In this document: piece by piece, positions 1,016 to 19,608 of the stretch
How the letters are laid out: each line of letters begins with the position of its first letter
Position numbering within the stretch: position 1 is the first letter of the stretch
Assembly (NCBI GenBank): GCA_021796515.1
Contig: JAKACC010000007.1
Location: 1 to 35,535 of the forward strand
Length of the DNA stretch: 35,535 nt
Origin: an archaeon
Lineage (GTDB): Archaea > Thermoproteota > Nitrososphaeria > Nitrososphaerales > Gagatemarchaeaceae
Direction of reading: 5' to 3'
The notes under the pieces: generated by a model
What the model was told of the DNA's origin: nothing
The model's database searches: none
Seen by the model: only the letters and a program-made list of their open reading frames with translations
Translations under genes and position numbers: made by a program

Positions 1016-1387
1016 ATGGCTCTCTTCGGGGACATCGGGACGGTCTTCGCGATGGGCCTGGTCGGCATGGGGTTCACCCTCCCGGTCGTCCTCCTTCCGC
1101 GCCTCTTCGGTCCGAGGCACCCTAACCCCCTGAAGAACGCCCCCTTCGAGTCCGGACAGGTCCCCCAGGGGGCCGGGAAGATGCACTTCATGATGCAGTA
1201 CTACGCCTACCTCTTGATGTTCATCGTCTTCGACGTTCTCGGGATGTTCCTCTACGCCTGGGCGGCGGCCTACAAGCCGCTTTCACTCGGCTTATCGTCT
1301 GACTGGGCGGTCACGCTCTTCATCGGGATGCTCTTCATTCCCATGGGGTTCGCATTGGTGCTGGCAGGGAGGCGCGATCTGTGGTAG
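1016..1387 (+). CDS. nuoA: NADH-quinone oxidoreductase subunit A
   Basis: This is the small membrane subunit of complex I (123 residues, normal for NuoA). It sits in the membrane arm near the quinone channel and helps couple quinone reduction to ion pumping. Three hydrophobic helices are visible. The family signature lies in the loop after helix 1: NAPFESG followed by Q-V-P-Q-G, then the conserved acidic helix with [12 protein letters not shown]. The ATG at 1016 follows a TATA box at the expected distance. The gene overlaps the GTG start of nuoB by seven bases and is the first gene of the nuoABCD operon. In archaea without NuoEFG the electron donor is usually ferredoxin or F420H2 rather than NADH; which applies here cannot be told from this window. 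Confidence 0.93.
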
Positions 1388-3042
1388 TCGCGCAGCAGCA
1401 AAAGTCCGGGGCCTTCCAAGTCTTGGTCGGGAAGATAGATGACATCCTCCAATATGCCATAGGCGATCCGATGCGCTACCTCGCAAACTGGGGGCGCCTT
1501 TACTCACTCTGGCCCGTCCATCTAGAGACGGCTTGCTGTGTCCCTCCGGAAACCGTCATCCTGGGAGACGACAAGCAGATCTCTGAATACGAACCCGGGG
1601 ACATGGCCGCCTCGGCTTCGGGGCTCGTCACTGTCACCAGGACCTTCAAGCGGCAGTACAGCGGCTACATGCTTGAAATCACGGGACGCGGGATGCTCCC
1701 CATCCGTCTGACCCCAGAGCACCCAGTCCTCGTCGCTTCGCGGTTGCTCAGGAGCGGCAAGGGAGAATACCTCCCTGGAACCAGTTGGAAGAAGGCATCA
1801 GAACTTGTCAGCGCCCCGCCGGTCAAGGCGAACGGCGAGTCCGTCTTTCCTGACGTGGCGCACGACTGCCTCCTGATACCGCGGATCAAAGGGCACCTCG
1901 AGCTGACCAGCATCCCTCTCAGTCCCTATGCGAACCGCCGCGGCCTTGCCGTCATGAGAGCCCGGCGGGACAGCCCGCCCTTGGACTTTCCGCTCAATGT
2001 GAAAACGGCATGGCTCCTGGGTGTCTACGTCGCGCAAGGCTGGACCAGCGAGAACCACTACGTCTTCTTTTCCGTCGGGAAGCACGAGAAGAGCCTCGCC
2101 AGGCGCATCTCGCTGCTGGCGAAGTCTCTTGGGTATTCGCCGCAGATCAGGGAAAGGGAGACCGCGCTCGTCGTGAGGTTCTCATCCAGCGTCCTCGCAA
2201 GAGCCCTGAGGGAGTGGTGCGGGCACCTCGCGGAGAACAAGAAAGTCCCCGACTTCATACTCCACCACAGGAGCGAACCTCTGTTGCGTTCGTTCCTCAG
2301 CGGCTACCTGAAGGGCGACGGAAGCGTCACCGTCGACAAAGGGGGTCCCGTCTTCGACCATGCGAGCACAACTTCGAAAGTCCTTGTCCTCCAGCTGCAG
2401 CTGGCGTATGCCAGGCTTGGGCGTTTCGCAAGAATCAGACTGGAGCGCCGAGAGGGGGTCGCACAGATCGAGGGAAGGACAGCCAAGGAGAGGGATGCCT
2501 ACTCTCTTTCCCTGCTCGCGTCTGACAGGAAGGTTGCCGACTTCCGCATCAGCCCGGATTACATCATCGTCCCGATAAGGAAGATTTCGAAGTTACCTTA
2601 CTCCGGTCAGGTGAGGAACCTTGAGACAAGCGACAGCACGTACCTCGTGTCGAACGCTGTCGTCCACAACTGCAGCGTCGAGGTCGGAGCGGCCGCCGGG
2701 TCGAGGTTCGACATGGAGAGGTTCGGCGCCCTCGAGGCATTCGGCTCCCTCCGTGCCTGCGACCTGATCATAGTCATGGGGACTGTCACGCGCAAGCTCG
2801 CCCCCAGGCTGAAGTTCATCTACGACCAGATGGCCGAGCCCAAGTGGGTCATGGCGATGGGCGCATGCAGCATCACCGGGGGGCTCTACTTCGACTCCTA
2901 TAACGTCCTGAGGGGGATCGACGACATCATCCCGGTCGACGTCTACATCCCGGGCTGTCCGCCGCGGGCCGAAGCCGTGCTCCAGGGCCTCGTCTTGCTC
3001 CAAGAAAAGATCAGAAGGGCTCCATCTCTAAGCGGCCGGTGA
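1381..3042 (+). CDS. nuoB: NADH-quinone oxidoreductase subunit B precursor with in-frame intein
   Basis: The precursor has 553 residues. Residues 1-52 and 431-553 form a normal NuoB of 175 residues after removal of a 378-residue intein (53-430). NuoB binds the terminal 4Fe-4S cluster N2, which passes electrons to quinone. Its four ligands would be C52 and C431 (adjacent after splicing, motif ACCSVE), C496 (MGACS) and C526 (PGCPP). The intein sits exactly between the two tandem cysteine ligands, so the unspliced protein cannot form the N2 site. The start is a GTG overlapping the end of nuoA. nuoC begins seven bases after the stop. The extein parts match NuoB clearly: [18 protein letters not shown], and MGTVTRK in the middle. 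Confidence 0.95.
1537..2670 (+). mobile_element. Intein with degenerate LAGLIDADG endonuclease, inserted in nuoB
   Basis: This self-splicing element (378 residues) starts with Cys (C53 of the precursor, CVPPETVI) and ends VVHN, followed by Cys+1 (C431), a class 1 intein layout. The block B motif TPEH is at 111-114 and the block F/G region is [13 protein letters not shown] then AVVHN. It also has the two LAGLIDADG helices: LLGVYVAQG (212-220) and [10 protein letters not shown] (305-314). The second keeps its acidic residue (D313), but the first has Gln (Q219) where DOD homing endonucleases carry Asp or Glu, so DNA cleavage is probably weakened or lost while splicing residues look intact. Hand-counted samples gave GC near the host's (58% and about 75% over two 60-base lines), suggesting an old, adapted insertion. 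Confidence 0.93.
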
Positions 3043-8066: not shown

Positions 8067-10718
8067 ATGGCTGGCAAACCTGACTACGATGTGGTCATCG
8101 CGGGGGGCGGGATGGCTGGCCTGATAACAGCCGCTTCCGTCGGCTACCACTCGAAGGGGAACGCCCGGGTCCTGGTGGTCGACAGGAACAAGGAGGGCGA
8201 GCCGGGAAGGAAGACCAACAACGGCTGGACCTGCGGGGATGCGACCAGCAAGAGGTCTTTGGATTACCTCGAGGAGCACATAGGGATAAGGTACGGCTCC
8301 CCCGAGCTGGAACACCCCGTGAGCGGGGTCTATGTCTACTCCCCAGACAGAAAGTCGAAAGTGCTCTTCGAAGGGGAGGGCTATCTGTTCAACAGGAAGT
8401 TGGTCCCGAGGCGCCAGGTCGCAGACGCGAAGAAGTTCGGGACAGAATTCATGTTCGGGGCCACTGCAGAGAGGCTTCTCTCGGAAGAGGGCCGTATCAC
8501 CGGGGTGACGGGACGGAGGTCTGACGGGACGGCGTTCAGCGTCACCGGGAAAATCGTCATCGACGCCACAGGTTCGTCCTCCACGCTCAGGAGGTTCATG
8601 CCCATCCCGTCGCTGATAGAGAAAGAGATCGACCCGGACGACGTGGTCGGCACCGGGAGGTACATACTCGACTTCGAGCCGGCCGTAGAAGACAAGGTGT
8701 TCTTCGACTCTGATTATTGCATAATCCATCTTGATCAATTCATGGCGCCAGCAGGTTACTGCGTGGCGCCAGACACGCCAATAGTCTGCCGAAACAGTCT
8801 CAAGGCGGTGCAGGAAGTGAAGATGGGTGATGAAATACTCACTTCGGTTGGATGGATGCCCGTGTCAGCGACCAGCGTCAGGGACTTCACAGGCGAGTTG
8901 GTTGTAATCACTCCATCCATGCTGAACCAGACAATCAAACTGACCCCAGAGCATCTTGTAAGGGTCTGGAATCCAAAGACAGGCGAGACTTGGAAGCACG
9001 CTGACGAGTTGGCCCGTAACACCGGTGGAAAGCATCAGCCAGGGGACTTCCTCGTAGTAACACTCCCCACTCAGCCTTCCAAGCCACTCGAGGAATTAAG
9101 TGCCTTGGACTACGTCGATGGACTCGTCGAGGGCGACTACGTACACCTGGCGATACGACGCTCCTTCTTCAACGGGAGGGCGTCCGACGGATCCTATGTC
9201 CGGGCGAAAAGACTTGCCAAGCATCCCAAGGGTACCAAACTACCGCTGAAGATAGCGCTCACAGAGGATTTCATGGAACTGTGTGGTCTGTACGTCGCAG
9301 AAGGATGCGTCAAGAAAGATCACGTGGTGATATCGAATACAAATCGTCAGGTCATTGCAGGGGTCCACGACAAAGCCGGGCGCCTCGGCTACAACTGCTT
9401 TGATTGGATCAGTTTGAGGAGGAATCGTGCCAAGCCCACAATCAATGTGGAATTCGGGAACTCGCTTCTTGCCAAGGTGATGAGCGACTGCTTCGGCAAA
9501 GGGGCGAGGAACAAGAAGTTGCCAGCGTGGATTCACGAGATCTCGAGGAGTTCAAAGATGGCTTTCTTGCGAGGCTACTACGAGGGAGACGGATCGCGCG
9601 AACGCCACGAGGGACATTCTGAGGGACGCACCTTCACGACAACCTCTCGCGCTCTCCTCGTTGACATGTGGCTCCTGCTCGCAGGACTTGGAATCGTTGC
9701 CAGCATCAAGAGGAACAAGAAGAAGGATGCGTGGTCCGCGGGTGTCTGGGGCCACCAGGCCGGCTTCCTTGGGGAAGACTTGGCCAAGGCAGGCAGGGAA
9801 CAGTACACGGGATTCGTAGTAGGGAACGGCCGCATCTACCTGAACATTCGGAGGTTAGAGAGAGAGAAGTATTCGGGGCCTGTCTATGACCTCAACTCTG
9901 CGGGGGATTTCTCTCCTCTCTTTAACGTCCACAACTGCTGGGTCTTCCCGAAGGGAAAGAAGAAGGTGAACATAGGGCTGGGGGTGTCCCACTCCGGGCT
10001 GGCGAGGAGGAACAGGAGGTTCGGGCTCAACGACAACCTCCAGAGCCTCATCGACAAGTACCTGGCCGACAACCCGGTCATCAGGAACTTCTCCCAGCCC
10101 TCTGACGACGCCAACGCCGGGAACACGAAGGGAAATTGGCAGGTCCCAGTGAGGCGGCACAACGACTGCATGGTCGCCAACGGCTTTGCAGTGGTGGGGG
10201 ACGCTGCTTGGATGCCCAGGCCCATCGACGCCGGAGGGATAAGCCCCTCTATCTACGGCGGGACCATCCTGGGGAAGGTGGTCGCCGAGGCGCTCGAGGC
10301 CGGGGATGCGACAGAATCGGGCCTCTGGAATTACAACGTCGAGTACATGAACACCCACGGATACCCGATGGCCAGCTTCGAGGTCCTCAGGAGATACCTG
10401 CAGACGGTCACCAACGACCAGATCAACTACGGGATGGAGCACTTCCTTTCAGAGGAAGACGTAGCGGCGATAACCGAGAGGAAGCACCCCGAATTCAACC
10501 AGGCCCGCTTCATGAACCCGGCGATGTGGTTCCGGGTCCTTAGGCAGCTTTCGCTCGCCAGGGGGCTCAGGTACACCGTCAAGAAGAGCGCCGCCCTGGT
10601 GGAGATCAACCTAGCCTACCCAGACTCCCCCAAAGGCTTCGGCGAATGGCAGAAGCGCCTGGGCAAGGAGCTCGCTGAGACCGTTGAGAAGTTCAAGCCC
10701 CTCGACGTGGCCAACTAG
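8067..10718 (+). CDS. Geranylgeranyl reductase family flavoprotein precursor with in-frame intein
   Basis: The 883-residue precursor holds a 491-residue flavoprotein (1-231 and 624-883) split by a 392-residue intein. The flavoprotein has the FAD Rossmann motif GGGMAG (13-18), the DATGSSSTLRR segment, the family motif around the splice site (APAGY then CWVFPKG after joining) and the second FAD motif GDAAWMP...DAGGI. Such enzymes saturate the geranylgeranyl chains of archaeal lipids, and relatives act on menaquinone or other isoprenoids. Substrate cannot be fixed from sequence. The ATG at 8067 is 27 bases from the centre of a TATA box shared with the divergent TrmB gene. The insertion lies in a conserved motif, as inteins commonly do. 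Confidence 0.92.
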   Translation: MAGKPDYDVVIAGGGMAGLITAASVGYHSKGNARVLVVDRNKEGEPGRKTNNGWTCGDATSKRSLDYLEEHIGIRYGSPELEHPVSGVYVYSPDRKSKVLFEGEGYLFNRKLVPRRQVADAKKFGTEFMFGATAERLLSEEGRITGVTGRRSDGTAFSVTGKIVIDATGSSSTLRRFMPIPSLIEKEIDPDDVVGTGRYILDFEPAVEDKVFFDSDYCIIHLDQFMAPAGYCVAPDTPIVCRNSLKAVQEVKMGDEILTSVGWMPVSATSVRDFTGELVVITPSMLNQTIKLTPEHLVRVWNPKTGETWKHADELARNTGGKHQPGDFLVVTLPTQPSKPLEELSALDYVDGLVEGDYVHLAIRRSFFNGRASDGSYVRAKRLAKHPKGTKLPLKIALTEDFMELCGLYVAEGCVKKDHVVISNTNRQVIAGVHDKAGRLGYNCFDWISLRRNRAKPTINVEFGNSLLAKVMSDCFGKGARNKKLPAWIHEISRSSKMAFLRGYYEGDGSRERHEGHSEGRTFTTTSRALLVDMWLLLAGLGIVASIKRNKKKDAWSAGVWGHQAGFLGEDLAKAGREQYTGFVVGNGRIYLNIRRLEREKYSGPVYDLNSAGDFSPLFNVHNCWVFPKGKKKVNIGLGVSHSGLARRNRRFGLNDNLQSLIDKYLADNPVIRNFSQPSDDANAGNTKGNWQVPVRRHNDCMVANGFAVVGDAAWMPRPIDAGGISPSIYGGTILGKVVAEALEAGDATESGLWNYNVEYMNTHGYPMASFEVLRRYLQTVTNDQINYGMEHFLSEEDVAAITERKHPEFNQARFMNPAMWFRVLRQLSLARGLRYTVKKSAALVEINLAYPDSPKGFGEWQKRLGKELAETVEKFKPLDVAN
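8760..9935 (+). mobile_element. Intein with intact LAGLIDADG endonuclease motifs in geranylgeranyl reductase
   Basis: This 392-residue element starts at C232 (CVAPDTPI) and ends FNVHN (N623), followed by Cys+1 (C624). Block B is TPEH (293-296); block F is YSGPVYDLN. Both LAGLIDADG helices keep their acids: CGLYVAEG (E412) and FLRGYYEGDG (D508), so the homing endonuclease may be active. Base composition differs from the host: hand counts of 60-base lines within it gave 48% (8881), 55% (9001) and 43% (9301) GC, against 68% in the host gene at 8101. It uses codons such as aat, aaa and tta more than its neighbours. Together these suggest recent arrival by horizontal transfer. Confidence 0.93.
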
Positions 10719-10744
10719 AAATACCACCCGGGTTCCGGGTGCCC

Positions 10745-11143
10745 ATGGTAAAGCTCGCCCCCAAGGTCATGGAGTTCCTCGAGGGGAAGCACTTCGGTAA
10801 GCTCGCGACCGTGATGAAGGACGGGTCCCCCCACGTCACCCCCATCTGGTACATGGTGGACGGGGGCAAGGTCGTAATCAACACGACTACGACCCGGGTG
10901 AAATACTTCAACATCGTCCGGGACCCAAGGGTCAGCTTCCTAGTGGATGACGGGTATCCATACGTAATACTCTTCGGGAAGGCTAGGGTGGCGCCTGAGA
11001 GGGACGCCAAAAGAGACATAGAGGCGCTGGCGATCAGGTACACGGGAGCGACCAGGGGACGGAAAGCGGCACGGTCGACCTTCTGGAAGGAGCCCCGGGT
11101 GTCGATAGAGATAGTGCCAGAAAGGGTCTTCGTCAGCCTCTAG
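10745..11143 (+). CDS. Pyridoxamine-5'-phosphate-oxidase-like split-barrel flavin/F420 protein
   Basis: This 132-residue protein has the split beta-barrel fold of the PPOX/FDOR family: a FGKLATVMKDGSPHVTPIWY opening, a VVINTTTTRVKYFNI segment that would touch the cofactor phosphate, and RDPRVSFLVDD. Members bind FMN or F420 and reduce varied small substrates; which applies here is unknown. ATG 10745 is preferred over the GTG six bases earlier because a TATA-like agaaatacc is centred 25 bases upstream, right after the geranylgeranyl reductase stop. It is convergent with a TetR gene, and the two stop codons touch with no base between. A functional link to flavin-dependent lipid reduction next door is possible but unproven. 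Confidence 0.85.
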   Translation: MVKLAPKVMEFLEGKHFGKLATVMKDGSPHVTPIWYMVDGGKVVINTTTTRVKYFNIVRDPRVSFLVDDGYPYVILFGKARVAPERDAKRDIEALAIRYTGATRGRKAARSTFWKEPRVSIEIVPERVFVSL

Positions 11144-16099: not shown

Positions 16100-17845
16100 A
16101 TGTCCTTCGAGATAGCCGAAGACCTCTCCAGGCAGACCTCGGAGCTCCTTTCCCGGTTCGAAGGGAGGGCCGCCGCCTTCTCCAACAGAGAGGACCTGGC
16201 CTCGTTTGCGCTCCAGCGCGACCGAGCTGCCGCTGAGAAGACCGCCCGGGAGTTCTTCGGTCCGGGGGAGCACCTTGCGACGGGGATCGACGGTTCCATG
16301 GACTTTGACGAGCGGCTCCAGATGATACTCTTCTACGCCAACGCGACCGCCTATAGCTGCCCCTTTACAGTCGCGGAGCACCTGTCCCTGGACCTATCCG
16401 GGGCTTACAGAGAGTCGAAGATGGACGCTTCTGCAGCCATCCCGCTCTGGGCCGAGGACCTCTCCAACGTCCTCACAAACGAGCCGGAGATAGACATCGA
16501 GCTGGAGCATTCGGTTGAGAGGATCCCGAACTCTTTCATGACCCTCGGAGAGCTTTACCTGGGGTACCGGGCCTGCGAGAAGTCTAGGATCGTGTTCATG
16601 GACCGGCCTCTCTCCGGGACCTATTCGACCCTCTCCCGCGACGTCAGGCTGCTCCTCAGGCGGGGAGAGACCAAGCTCACCCGTTGGTCCCCGGACGTTC
16701 CGGCGACGCTGCTGGACATGAAGCTCTCACTGTCTCTAGGCTCCCCGTCCATGGCGGTCCCCACCAGGGGCCGCTATCTGCATGTCGCCATGCTAAAGCG
16801 CCTGCTCGCGGGCCCGGCGAGCGTAGCAGACCTCTCGAAGACGCTCAAGGTCAGGGAAGCGGAGGCGTCGAAGGCCGCCGCAAGGCTCCTCAGGTTCGAC
16901 AAGGAAGCTGGAGGGTCGGTACTGTCAGACTCAGCAGAGTCCCACCTCGGGGTGAGGGACGAGGTCCGAGGATATTGGAGCCGTACCCTGGCGCTGTCTG
17001 TCGACTACGCATCCAAGGTCTTCTCCAGGTCGAGGCACCCCCTCGCCTTGAAGGCGGACGAGTATCTTACGATGCTCGACGTGAGCGCGGTCTCTCTGTT
17101 CCTGCTCCAGGGGCTCCTCGACCGGGCCTCGGAGAAGCGGACCCTCCTGGTGGGGATAGCCAAGGACACCTCGGCGACTGACGTCGCAAGGTCGGTCCTG
17201 CCGTTCGCGTCAGCCGGCGGTTTCCTGAGACTGGGCTCTCCGGCCCCGATGCTGAGGAACGACAGGGCTTTCCTGGCGATTCTGAGCGCCGAAAACCCGG
17301 AGATCGCGACCCCCTGGAGGACGATGGGGTACGACTCCGCCTTCTCGACCATCGCCAACGTCGGAGGAGAGCTGCGCAGCGCCAGGAAACTGGTCTCAAG
17401 AGAACGGCTCTTCGTCCGGTCTTACTTCCAGCTCCGGACCCTCAGGAGCGACAGAAAGGTCAGGTCGCAGGTCTTCCTCTTCGACAGGCCGTTCGGCGAA
17501 GGAGACGAGGGCGCCGAGAGGCAGGTCAGGGTCAAGGAGAAGTCAGGGATGGCTGACGTCGGTGCCTACTTCGAAGGGGACCGCCTCAGCAAGGCGTCCA
17601 ACCTGGTCCTGCATATCTTATCCATGGCGGACAACCCGGAGGTCTTCGAAGCCTTCGGCCACAACCAGCTGCTCTACCTGGCGGACAAGGCGGTGAAGGC
17701 GGAGGTCAGGATGCTCCGGAGCTCCCTCAGGGGGGTCGCGGACCTCAGCGCTGGCGGTGTGTCCAACAGGCGGAAGATATTCGGGCTCGTTACACCTTAT
17801 AGGCAGCAGCGGGCCGAGGCCGAACACGCGAGGATGAAACAATAG
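16100..17845 (+). CDS. nurA: NurA 5'-3' nuclease, long form with winged-helix insertion
   Basis: NurA is the nuclease that works with HerA, Mre11 and Rad50 to resect DNA ends for recombination. Motifs: GIDGS (62-66, metal-binding D64), FMDRPLSG (167-174, D168), GIAKDTSATD (352-361) and a C-terminal region with GHNQLLYLADKA where the family has its last motif. At 581 residues it is far longer than usual NurA proteins (roughly 300-450). Extra sequence between the second and third motifs (about 200-290) includes a likely winged helix (HVAMLKRLLAGPASVADLSKTL, residues 228-249 and onward). Start ATG 16100; herA follows after two bases, so they form an operon. Confidence 0.9.
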   Translation: MSFEIAEDLSRQTSELLSRFEGRAAAFSNREDLASFALQRDRAAAEKTAREFFGPGEHLATGIDGSMDFDERLQMILFYANATAYSCPFTVAEHLSLDLSGAYRESKMDASAAIPLWAEDLSNVLTNEPEIDIELEHSVERIPNSFMTLGELYLGYRACEKSRIVFMDRPLSGTYSTLSRDVRLLLRRGETKLTRWSPDVPATLLDMKLSLSLGSPSMAVPTRGRYLHVAMLKRLLAGPASVADLSKTLKVREAEASKAAARLLRFDKEAGGSVLSDSAESHLGVRDEVRGYWSRTLALSVDYASKVFSRSRHPLALKADEYLTMLDVSAVSLFLLQGLLDRASEKRTLLVGIAKDTSATDVARSVLPFASAGGFLRLGSPAPMLRNDRAFLAILSAENPEIATPWRTMGYDSAFSTIANVGGELRSARKLVSRERLFVRSYFQLRTLRSDRKVRSQVFLFDRPFGEGDEGAERQVRVKEKSGMADVGAYFEGDRLSKASNLVLHILSMADNPEVFEAFGHNQLLYLADKAVKAEVRMLRSSLRGVADLSAGGVSNRRKIFGLVTPYRQQRAEAEHARMKQ

Positions 17846-17847
17846 AG

Positions 17848-19608
17848 ATGCTGGAGAGCCAGCAGAACGGGTTCTTCGACAACATGGGCGGGGAGTTCGA
17901 CGCCCGCCTCAAGATGGTCACGAGGACTACGAGGACCACCAAGAGCGACGGCAGGGAGCTGACCGTGTCCAACCCGCTCGCGATAATCGAGGCGCGGTTC
18001 AGCTACAAGGTCCTCGACAGGCTCCTCTCCCCCAACTTCGTCGCCATAGAAAGGAGCGTAGAAGGCGAGAAGCGCTACGTGATGTACGAGGTGGTGGCCG
18101 TCAACCCCACGCACTACCAGCTCCCGGGGATCGACGCTTCCATGCCCACCCTCCTCAGGAAAGAGTACCTCGACACCATCAACGAGAGCTGGGGCAAGTC
18201 CCAAGAGACCTGGATCGACCTCGCGGCGGTCCCGACCAGCTACTGCGCGAAGCTGCAGGGCGACGGCATGGAGTACGCGCGAGCCTCCTATGCACCGCTC
18301 CCGGGTGCCAAGGCGCTGCTCCTCTCCAAGCCCGCCGTCGAGAGGTTCCTGTGCGTCACCGGAGGGGTCGAGATCGGCGACATGGTGGGCTTCGAAATCC
18401 CGCTCACCGTGGACATGGACAGCCTGATCCGGTATCACATGGGCGCGTTCGGCTTCACAGGCGCAGGGAAGTCAAACCTCACCAGCGGCCTGCTCAGGAC
18501 GGCCCTGGCAAGGGACCCACTGCTTACCGCTGTGGTGTTCGACATCGCGGGCGAGTATGCGGTGAACCTGCTCGACCTGCTGAAGGCCGGATCAAAGATA
18601 TACACGACCGAGACCATGGACAGCGCTTCGGAGTTCGTAAGCTCCCAGGCCATCCCCGAGACTCTGGAGGCCGCCCTGGGGAGGGAGAAGATAGAGCAGG
18701 AGCTGTCCGGCCTCTACAGAGGCGGAGTGGAGCGGCTGTCGCTCCTTGATGCCGGGGGGATAGACCTGGCGTGGATACAGGCACTTCTTCAGGGGACTGT
18801 GGACTCGGGGAGGACCGGAGGCACTTCGGCCAAGTTAGGGATCGCCCGTCTCAGCATGTCCCTCTACGAGAAGAGAGGATACAGGTCCAGCACCAGGCTG
18901 ACCGACCTGGACAAGGAGGCGAGAGACGAGCTCAACGCCCTGCTGAAGGACATCAACCAGAGCGTCAACGAGCGCTCCGGGCTAAGGGCTGACCTGGACC
19001 TCATAATCAAGATGCTCGATGCGCCGGAAGGGGCCCCGACCGGCCCGGCCCGGGTCACTCCAGAGGTGCTTGCCGAGCGGCTTGTCCGCGGGAGCGCCCC
19101 GCGCCTGAACATCCTCTACATGCCTGACCCCTACAACGCGAGGTCGGTCGCTGCCCGGCTGATACGCCGCCTCCTGTTGCTGAAGAAGAAAGTGGGGAAC
19201 AAGCAGAGGGTCCTCATCCTGCTCGACGAGGCCCAGGAGTACATCCCCGACGAGACGACAGACCGCGACTTCACCAGGGACTCGAACCTTGCGGTGGAAC
19301 AGCTCCTCCGTCAGGGGCGGAAGTACAGGCTCCACTGCTGGATGGCCACTCAGAGGGTCGCCAGGCTCAACGTGAACGCCCTGCAGCAGCTCCACAGCTA
19401 CTTCGTGAGCACCCTCCCGCGGATGTACGACAGGATGGTGATAGCTGACGCCTTCGCGCTCCCTTACGAGGTGCTCGAGAGGTCCGCCGAACTCGGGACG
19501 GGGGAGTGGCTCTTCGTGTCCTTCAAGGCTGCGAAGCAGAGGAACGTCCCGGTCTTCCTGAAGACCGTCAACAACGAGAGCATCGTCGCCGGGGCCCTGA
19601 ACCCCTAG
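17848..19608 (+). CDS. herA: HerA-type DNA helicase/translocase
   Basis: HerA is a hexameric FtsK/HerA-family ATPase that translocates DNA and drives end resection by NurA. The 586-residue protein has an N-terminal HAS-barrel-like region (about 35-185), Walker A GFTGAGKSN (202-210, K208), Walker B ILLDEAQEY (457-465, D460/E461), a WMATQR sensor segment (498-503) and the conserved C-terminal LGTGEWLFVS region. It starts two bases after the nurA stop and is certainly co-transcribed with it. mre11 and rad50 are not next to it, although they often are in archaea. Confidence 0.93.
   Translation: MLESQQNGFFDNMGGEFDARLKMVTRTTRTTKSDGRELTVSNPLAIIEARFSYKVLDRLLSPNFVAIERSVEGEKRYVMYEVVAVNPTHYQLPGIDASMPTLLRKEYLDTINESWGKSQETWIDLAAVPTSYCAKLQGDGMEYARASYAPLPGAKALLLSKPAVERFLCVTGGVEIGDMVGFEIPLTVDMDSLIRYHMGAFGFTGAGKSNLTSGLLRTALARDPLLTAVVFDIAGEYAVNLLDLLKAGSKIYTTETMDSASEFVSSQAIPETLEAALGREKIEQELSGLYRGGVERLSLLDAGGIDLAWIQALLQGTVDSGRTGGTSAKLGIARLSMSLYEKRGYRSSTRLTDLDKEARDELNALLKDINQSVNERSGLRADLDLIIKMLDAPEGAPTGPARVTPEVLAERLVRGSAPRLNILYMPDPYNARSVAARLIRRLLLLKKKVGNKQRVLILLDEAQEYIPDETTDRDFTRDSNLAVEQLLRQGRKYRLHCWMATQRVARLNVNALQQLHSYFVSTLPRMYDRMVIADAFALPYEVLERSAELGTGEWLFVSFKAAKQRNVPVFLKTVNNESIVAGALNP

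Follow-up and report, generated by a model that had tools for sequence, protein, structure and literature searches.

A class 1 intein with a LAGLIDADG homing endonuclease interrupts the gene for a geranylgeranyl reductase (GGR), the probable membrane-lipid-saturating enzyme, in an uncultured soil archaeon of the family Gagatemarchaeaceae. It lies at the Tyr-x bond of the PxxYxWxFP motif of a GGR of the Sulfolobus acidocaldarius type (SaGGR-type) and is very probably a selfish element that arrived recently by homing. Sequence comparisons establish its architecture and boundaries, the empty sites in relatives, the integrity of its splice and endonuclease residues, and an evolutionary history discordant with that of its host gene. 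Inteins bearing LAGLIDADG endonucleases are well known; here, it is the host and the allele that are new. In the literature searched, whose coverage excludes many subscription journals, we found no report of GGR as an intein host or of this insertion site, consistent with the view in the initial annotation that inteins do not usually reside in GGR.

The interrupted gene lies in a 35,535-nucleotide stretch of contig JAKACC010000007.1 (assembly GCA_021796515.1), called the window below. The draft genome that carries it, G000, is 95.6% complete and 1.5-Mb in size; the other genomes compared bear labels of the same kind. Gagatemarchaeaceae are non-ammonia-oxidizing Thaumarchaeota. The family corresponds to Thaumarchaeota group I.1c (PMC10640624).

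Architecture of the intein

The interrupted open reading frame (ORF) is free of stops throughout its 883 codons (Table 1). The intein occupies residues 232 to 623 of the precursor, starting with CVAPDTPIV and ending with LFNVHN, directly followed by Cys. The initial annotation had placed a 392-residue intein here, with coordinates that prove exact to the base, and had reported all splicing motifs. These are indeed present: Cys1, TPEH in block B, YSGPVYDLN in block F, and FNVHN followed by Cys+1 in block G. The class 1 residue set is complete, comprising the nucleophile Cys1, TxxH (as TPEH), a terminal VHN, and Cys at +1. Both LAGLIDADG motifs retain their acidic residues (E, D).

Table 1. Positions in the window of the interrupted GGR gene, its parts, and the adjoining probable tract.
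Feature	Positions	Strand	Basis or remark
GGR precursor ORF, 883 aa (extein 491 aa + intein 392 aa)	8067..10718	+	ORF reading; profile and structure-database matches
N-extein, residues 1-231, ending ...APAGY	8067..8759	+	Sequence; alignment to 3atq
Probable co-conversion tract, upstream part	8666..8759	+	72% identity to G015 vs ~93% around; GC3 0.58
Intein, 392 aa, class 1 (Cys1 ... His-Asn / Cys+1)	8760..9935	+	Sequence, aligned inteins, structure model
LAGLIDADG homing-endonuclease region, limits approximate; motifs LCGLYVAEG, LRGYYEGDG	9258..9728	+	PF14528 on intein residues 266-323; motifs read directly
C-extein, starting CWVFPKG	9936..10718	+	Sequence

By profile, the endonuclease half is clear (PF14528, E = 1e-17) and the splicing (Hint) half is weak (PF14890, E = 0.04, under the cut-off). 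We accept the Hint half despite this faint match because the splice residues are conserved across 13 aligned inteins, and because an AlphaFold2 model built from these 13 (pTM 0.76, mean pLDDT 72) finds whole inteins as its best matches in the Protein Data Bank. These are TliVMA of an archaeal V-ATPase (7qsu, E = 8e-19; also 7qss), PI-PkoII (2cw7), and PI-SceI. Together, the aligned residues, the endonuclease profile, and the predicted structure identify the segment as a class 1 intein with a Hint fold and a LAGLIDADG homing endonuclease.

The GGR intein resembles TliVMA, PI-PkoII, and PI-SceI in fold over its whole length (TM 0.61-0.67), and shares with them a Hint domain interrupted by a DOD endonuclease and a C-terminal end of HN followed by C. 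It is just 14-19% identical to them in the fold alignment, and differs from them in host protein and site. Its best curated sequence relative is the intein of tetraether lipid synthase (Tes; NF045703, 52 bits, endonuclease half). That intein also sits in an archaeal membrane-lipid enzyme, although the enzyme and the site differ. The Tes-family protein of G000 is uninterrupted on its own model (NF045702).

The host enzyme

Without the intein, residues 6-479 of the 491-residue extein align with the S. acidocaldarius GGR (3atq, E = 4e-61; also 3atr and 4opc). The two enzymes have the CGD and PxxYxWxFP motifs in common, and AGYCWVFPKG of the extein pairs with GGYWWYFPKG of 3atq. The S. acidocaldarius enzyme, in contrast, has no intein, and carries Trp where the G000 enzyme has Cys+1. 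PxxYxWxFP is a motif of the catalytic cavity of archaeal GGRs (PMC10821996). It is present here as P-A-G-Y-[intein]-C-W-V-F-P, with the insertion between the Tyr and the next residue. The initial annotation had named the host a geranylgeranyl reductase, interrupted in a GY/CWVFP motif near the flavin/substrate site; the host can now be specified as an archaeal lipid-type GGR, and the site as the catalytic-cavity motif.

Full-length collinearity with a characterized GGR and an FAD-binding N-terminus identify the host, at the sequence level, as an SaGGR-type GGR. The best NCBIfam model for the spliced protein is digeranylgeranylglycerophospholipid reductase (NF041080), at 283 bits, short of the curated cut-off of 580 bits, and we do not file the host as an equivalog of that model. 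The uninterrupted orthologue of sister genome G015 scores 280 bits, so the low score reflects lineage distance rather than an effect of the intein.

No second GGR-superfamily protein matches NF041080 along its length in the 95.6% complete draft. C79 and the FixC-like C73 reach 53-54 bits over partial length, and C19 is absent from the match list. The interrupted gene is thus the best lipid-GGR candidate of G000. It is likely to be the only lipid GGR of this genome, with a precursor that is likely to be inactive, in which case lipid saturation would depend on splicing. The absence of another match along the length of the model makes this dependence plausible.

Two further observations concern the surroundings of the gene. 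The gene after GGR (10739-11143) encodes an F420-dependent PPOX-class oxidoreductase (TIGR03618). Further along, a HerA-type (DUF87) helicase gene (17848-19608) is immediately preceded by a 581-amino acid ORF (16100-17845) that has no Pfam match.

Empty sites and distribution

The GGR orthologue is uninterrupted in 24 genomes of the same genus, where matches to the precursor break exactly at query positions 232/624. Alignment with homologues, which the initial annotation had proposed, thus displays the uninterrupted form. Its concern that the extra segment might be a normal domain of the subfamily falls away, since most same-genus orthologues lack the segment at the exact bond.

We found the intein in 5 of 46 family genomes (G000, G009, G033, G032, and G031); outside the genus of G000, diverged copies occupy this bond in three further genera of the family. 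The intein on the G009 contig is 100% identical to that of G000; the same bin, which is 8% contaminated, also has an empty copy. The G031 copy runs into the end of its contig. Among 398 genomes sampled across the phylum, the intein was not found beyond G000 itself, other matches being unrelated alleles at ~30% identity.

A search for related inteins, suggested earlier as a way to find the donor, did return related alleles in three sister genera, but none of these is the direct donor. The intein query had no match in IMG/VR contigs. Phage records gave weak matches only (22-32% identity, mostly to the endonuclease half), and none of the 398 sampled genomes offered a donor candidate above ~30% identity.

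A probable co-conversion tract at the insertion site

Intein-bearing alleles read GY/CWVFP, with Cys at +1, while GYAWVFP is the reading of almost all empty alleles. At +1, the final alignment of 27 rows has Ala in 21, Cys in 4, Ser in 1, and Gly in 1; the 23 empty alleles of the same genus have Ala in 21, Ser in 1, and Cys in 1.

The extein DNA of G015, the sister comparator, is 93.1% identical to that of G000. Of the 101 extein mismatches between them, 28 fall within 108 nt, from -94 to +13 of the site, against a maximum of 23 and a mean of 14 in 20,000 permutations. Downstream of the intein, the probable tract consists only of positions 9936-9937, in the Cys codon. Mean identity across the ~18 kb locus common to the two genomes is 91.6%, and the tract is the only coding dip as low as 72%; comparable dips all lie between ORFs. 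The GC3 of the tract is low in G000 (0.58, compared with 0.85 in the rest of the gene) and high in G015 (0.91, compared with 0.85). This low-GC3 mismatch cluster at the site is probably a co-conversion tract that includes the Cys codon needed for splicing, and as such it argues for past homing. That the +1 residue must be co-converted is known from MCM inteins (PMC10643990).

Low GC3 on its own is no diagnostic sign, since intein-free G010, with Ala at +1, shows it in the tract too (0.61 vs 0.81). The sole same-genus empty allele with Cys at +1 belongs to G027 (L024, C99), and has a tract GC3 of 0.64 vs 0.86. It has 15 minority bases in common with G000 in 99 nt of the tract, compared with 44 in 1101 nt elsewhere (Fisher P = 4e-5). 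This allele may be either the scar of a precise intein loss or the donor background of the intein.

Divergence of the intein and its host gene

Extein identity is 83% between G000 and G033 and 75% between G000 and G032, while the corresponding intein identities are 62.5% and 64.5%. In column bootstraps, G000 and G033 form the closest pair in 5000 of 5000 replicates for the extein, compared with 500 of 5000 for the intein. This discordance indicates that the intein has not been inherited purely along with its host gene. Values of pS are 0.77-0.87 for the intein, where synonymous sites are saturated, and 0.62-0.66 for the extein. In both, pN is well below pS, which suggests that the intein is still constrained; codon bias differs, however, and these rates are supporting evidence only. 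From these comparisons, the intein looks recently mobile.

The same data could be read the other way around. That is, the intein would be ancestral in the genus, G015 and others would have lost it via intein-free alleles, and the divergent tract would mark a replacement in G015. Precise loss by recombination with an intein-free allele is a described route (PMC1654191), and the presence of the intein in three other genera of the family would fit. We nevertheless regard an ancestral intein as unlikely: it would require more than 20 losses inside one genus, it is G000 whose composition is anomalous (GC3 0.58 vs 0.85; G015, 0.91 vs 0.85), and the divergence of the inteins does not track the tree of the host gene.

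Under recent homing, the reading that we prefer, the endonuclease would cut intein-less GGR alleles at the conserved site. Repair would then bring in the intein, the ~95 nt directly upstream of it, and the Cys codon required by splicing, and entry into the G000 lineage would postdate its split from G015. From established intein chemistry, the precursor should be inactive until the intein self-excises, by way of an acyl shift at Cys1, transesterification to Cys+1, and cyclization of Asn392, which would join GY to CWVFP. The intein behaves as a selfish element, and a regulatory role is unnecessary as an explanation.

Other inteins of the genome and family

The window contains a second intein. 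A NuoB-like subunit (1381-3042) carries a 378-amino acid intein (1537-2670) that splits a tandem Cys-Cys motif (ETAC/...HN/CSVEVG), and its +1 Cys would be an Fe-S ligand. The NuoB intein has the same architecture as the GGR intein, to which it is 25-30% identical, and a different host. Alleles of it occur in many family genomes and in sister G015; hence, unlike the GGR intein, it is vertically shared, and it is the older of the two here. Our literature search found no description of inteins in NuoB or complex I. Elsewhere in G000 (C57), locus L007 encodes a NuoI-like subunit (1057-2700) with an intein at the ferredoxin-type cluster motif (DYGR/...HN/CVFCGLCVDACP). As read from their motifs, NuoB and NuoI, which belong to one respiratory complex, both need splicing, in each case at a cysteine that serves as a cluster ligand.

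Further inteins are carried by G000 loci L001, L002, L003, L006, and L008. Their hosts, judged from sequence, are a MoxR-like AAA ATPase (a mini-intein), a VirB11-type ATPase, an aIF2-gamma-like GTPase, RadA, and PolB. With those in GGR, NuoB, and NuoI, G000 has at least 8 inteins. PF14890 has matches in 17 of 19 sampled family genomes (≥90% completeness), compared with 31 of 131 from elsewhere in the order, and some family bins have more than 10 matches; at the threshold used for this count, the profile misses both inteins of the window. Based on these matches, the family is intein-rich, in contrast to a 2023 survey whose table for 18 Thaumarchaeota genomes has one single-intein gene (PMC10643990). 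Because this generic profile misses the GGR intein, intein-split genes are easily annotated as broken or fused.

The intein might instead be immobile now, or kept for regulation, with redox- or pH-conditional splicing gating GGR activity. Its splicing active site is cysteine based, the NuoB and NuoI inteins of G000 are placed at cysteines that ligate Fe-S clusters, and conditional splicing is known for some inteins, with P. horikoshii RadA as an example (PMC5790916). Yet the patchy presence (5 of 46 genomes, with otherwise similar enzymes), the intact endonuclease motifs, and the homing footprint are all explicable without regulation, which makes such a role very improbable. We give as little credence to the broader proposal that the GGR, NuoB, and NuoI inteins are redox/pH gates, such that membrane saturation and respiration need conditional splicing in acid-soil archaea; if it were true, inteins would control the energy metabolism of these archaea.

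We find it barely conceivable, even for a metagenome-assembled genome (MAG), that the segment is a chimera created in assembly or an extra domain normal to this GGR subfamily. A second MAG has a near-identical contig (JAKAUC010000020.1, YP3.bin16), which over 20.7 kb is 99.89% identical and shows 23 differences, all outside the ORF; three other genera have homologous inteins at this bond; and orthologues across the order lack the segment.

Implications

A membrane-lipid enzyme joins the known intein hosts, with the insertion at its catalytic motif. At this one locus are found empty sites, a probable co-conversion tract bringing the obligatory Cys+1, and a possible scar of loss. Together, these make it possible to test the homing cycle in a genus of uncultured archaea.
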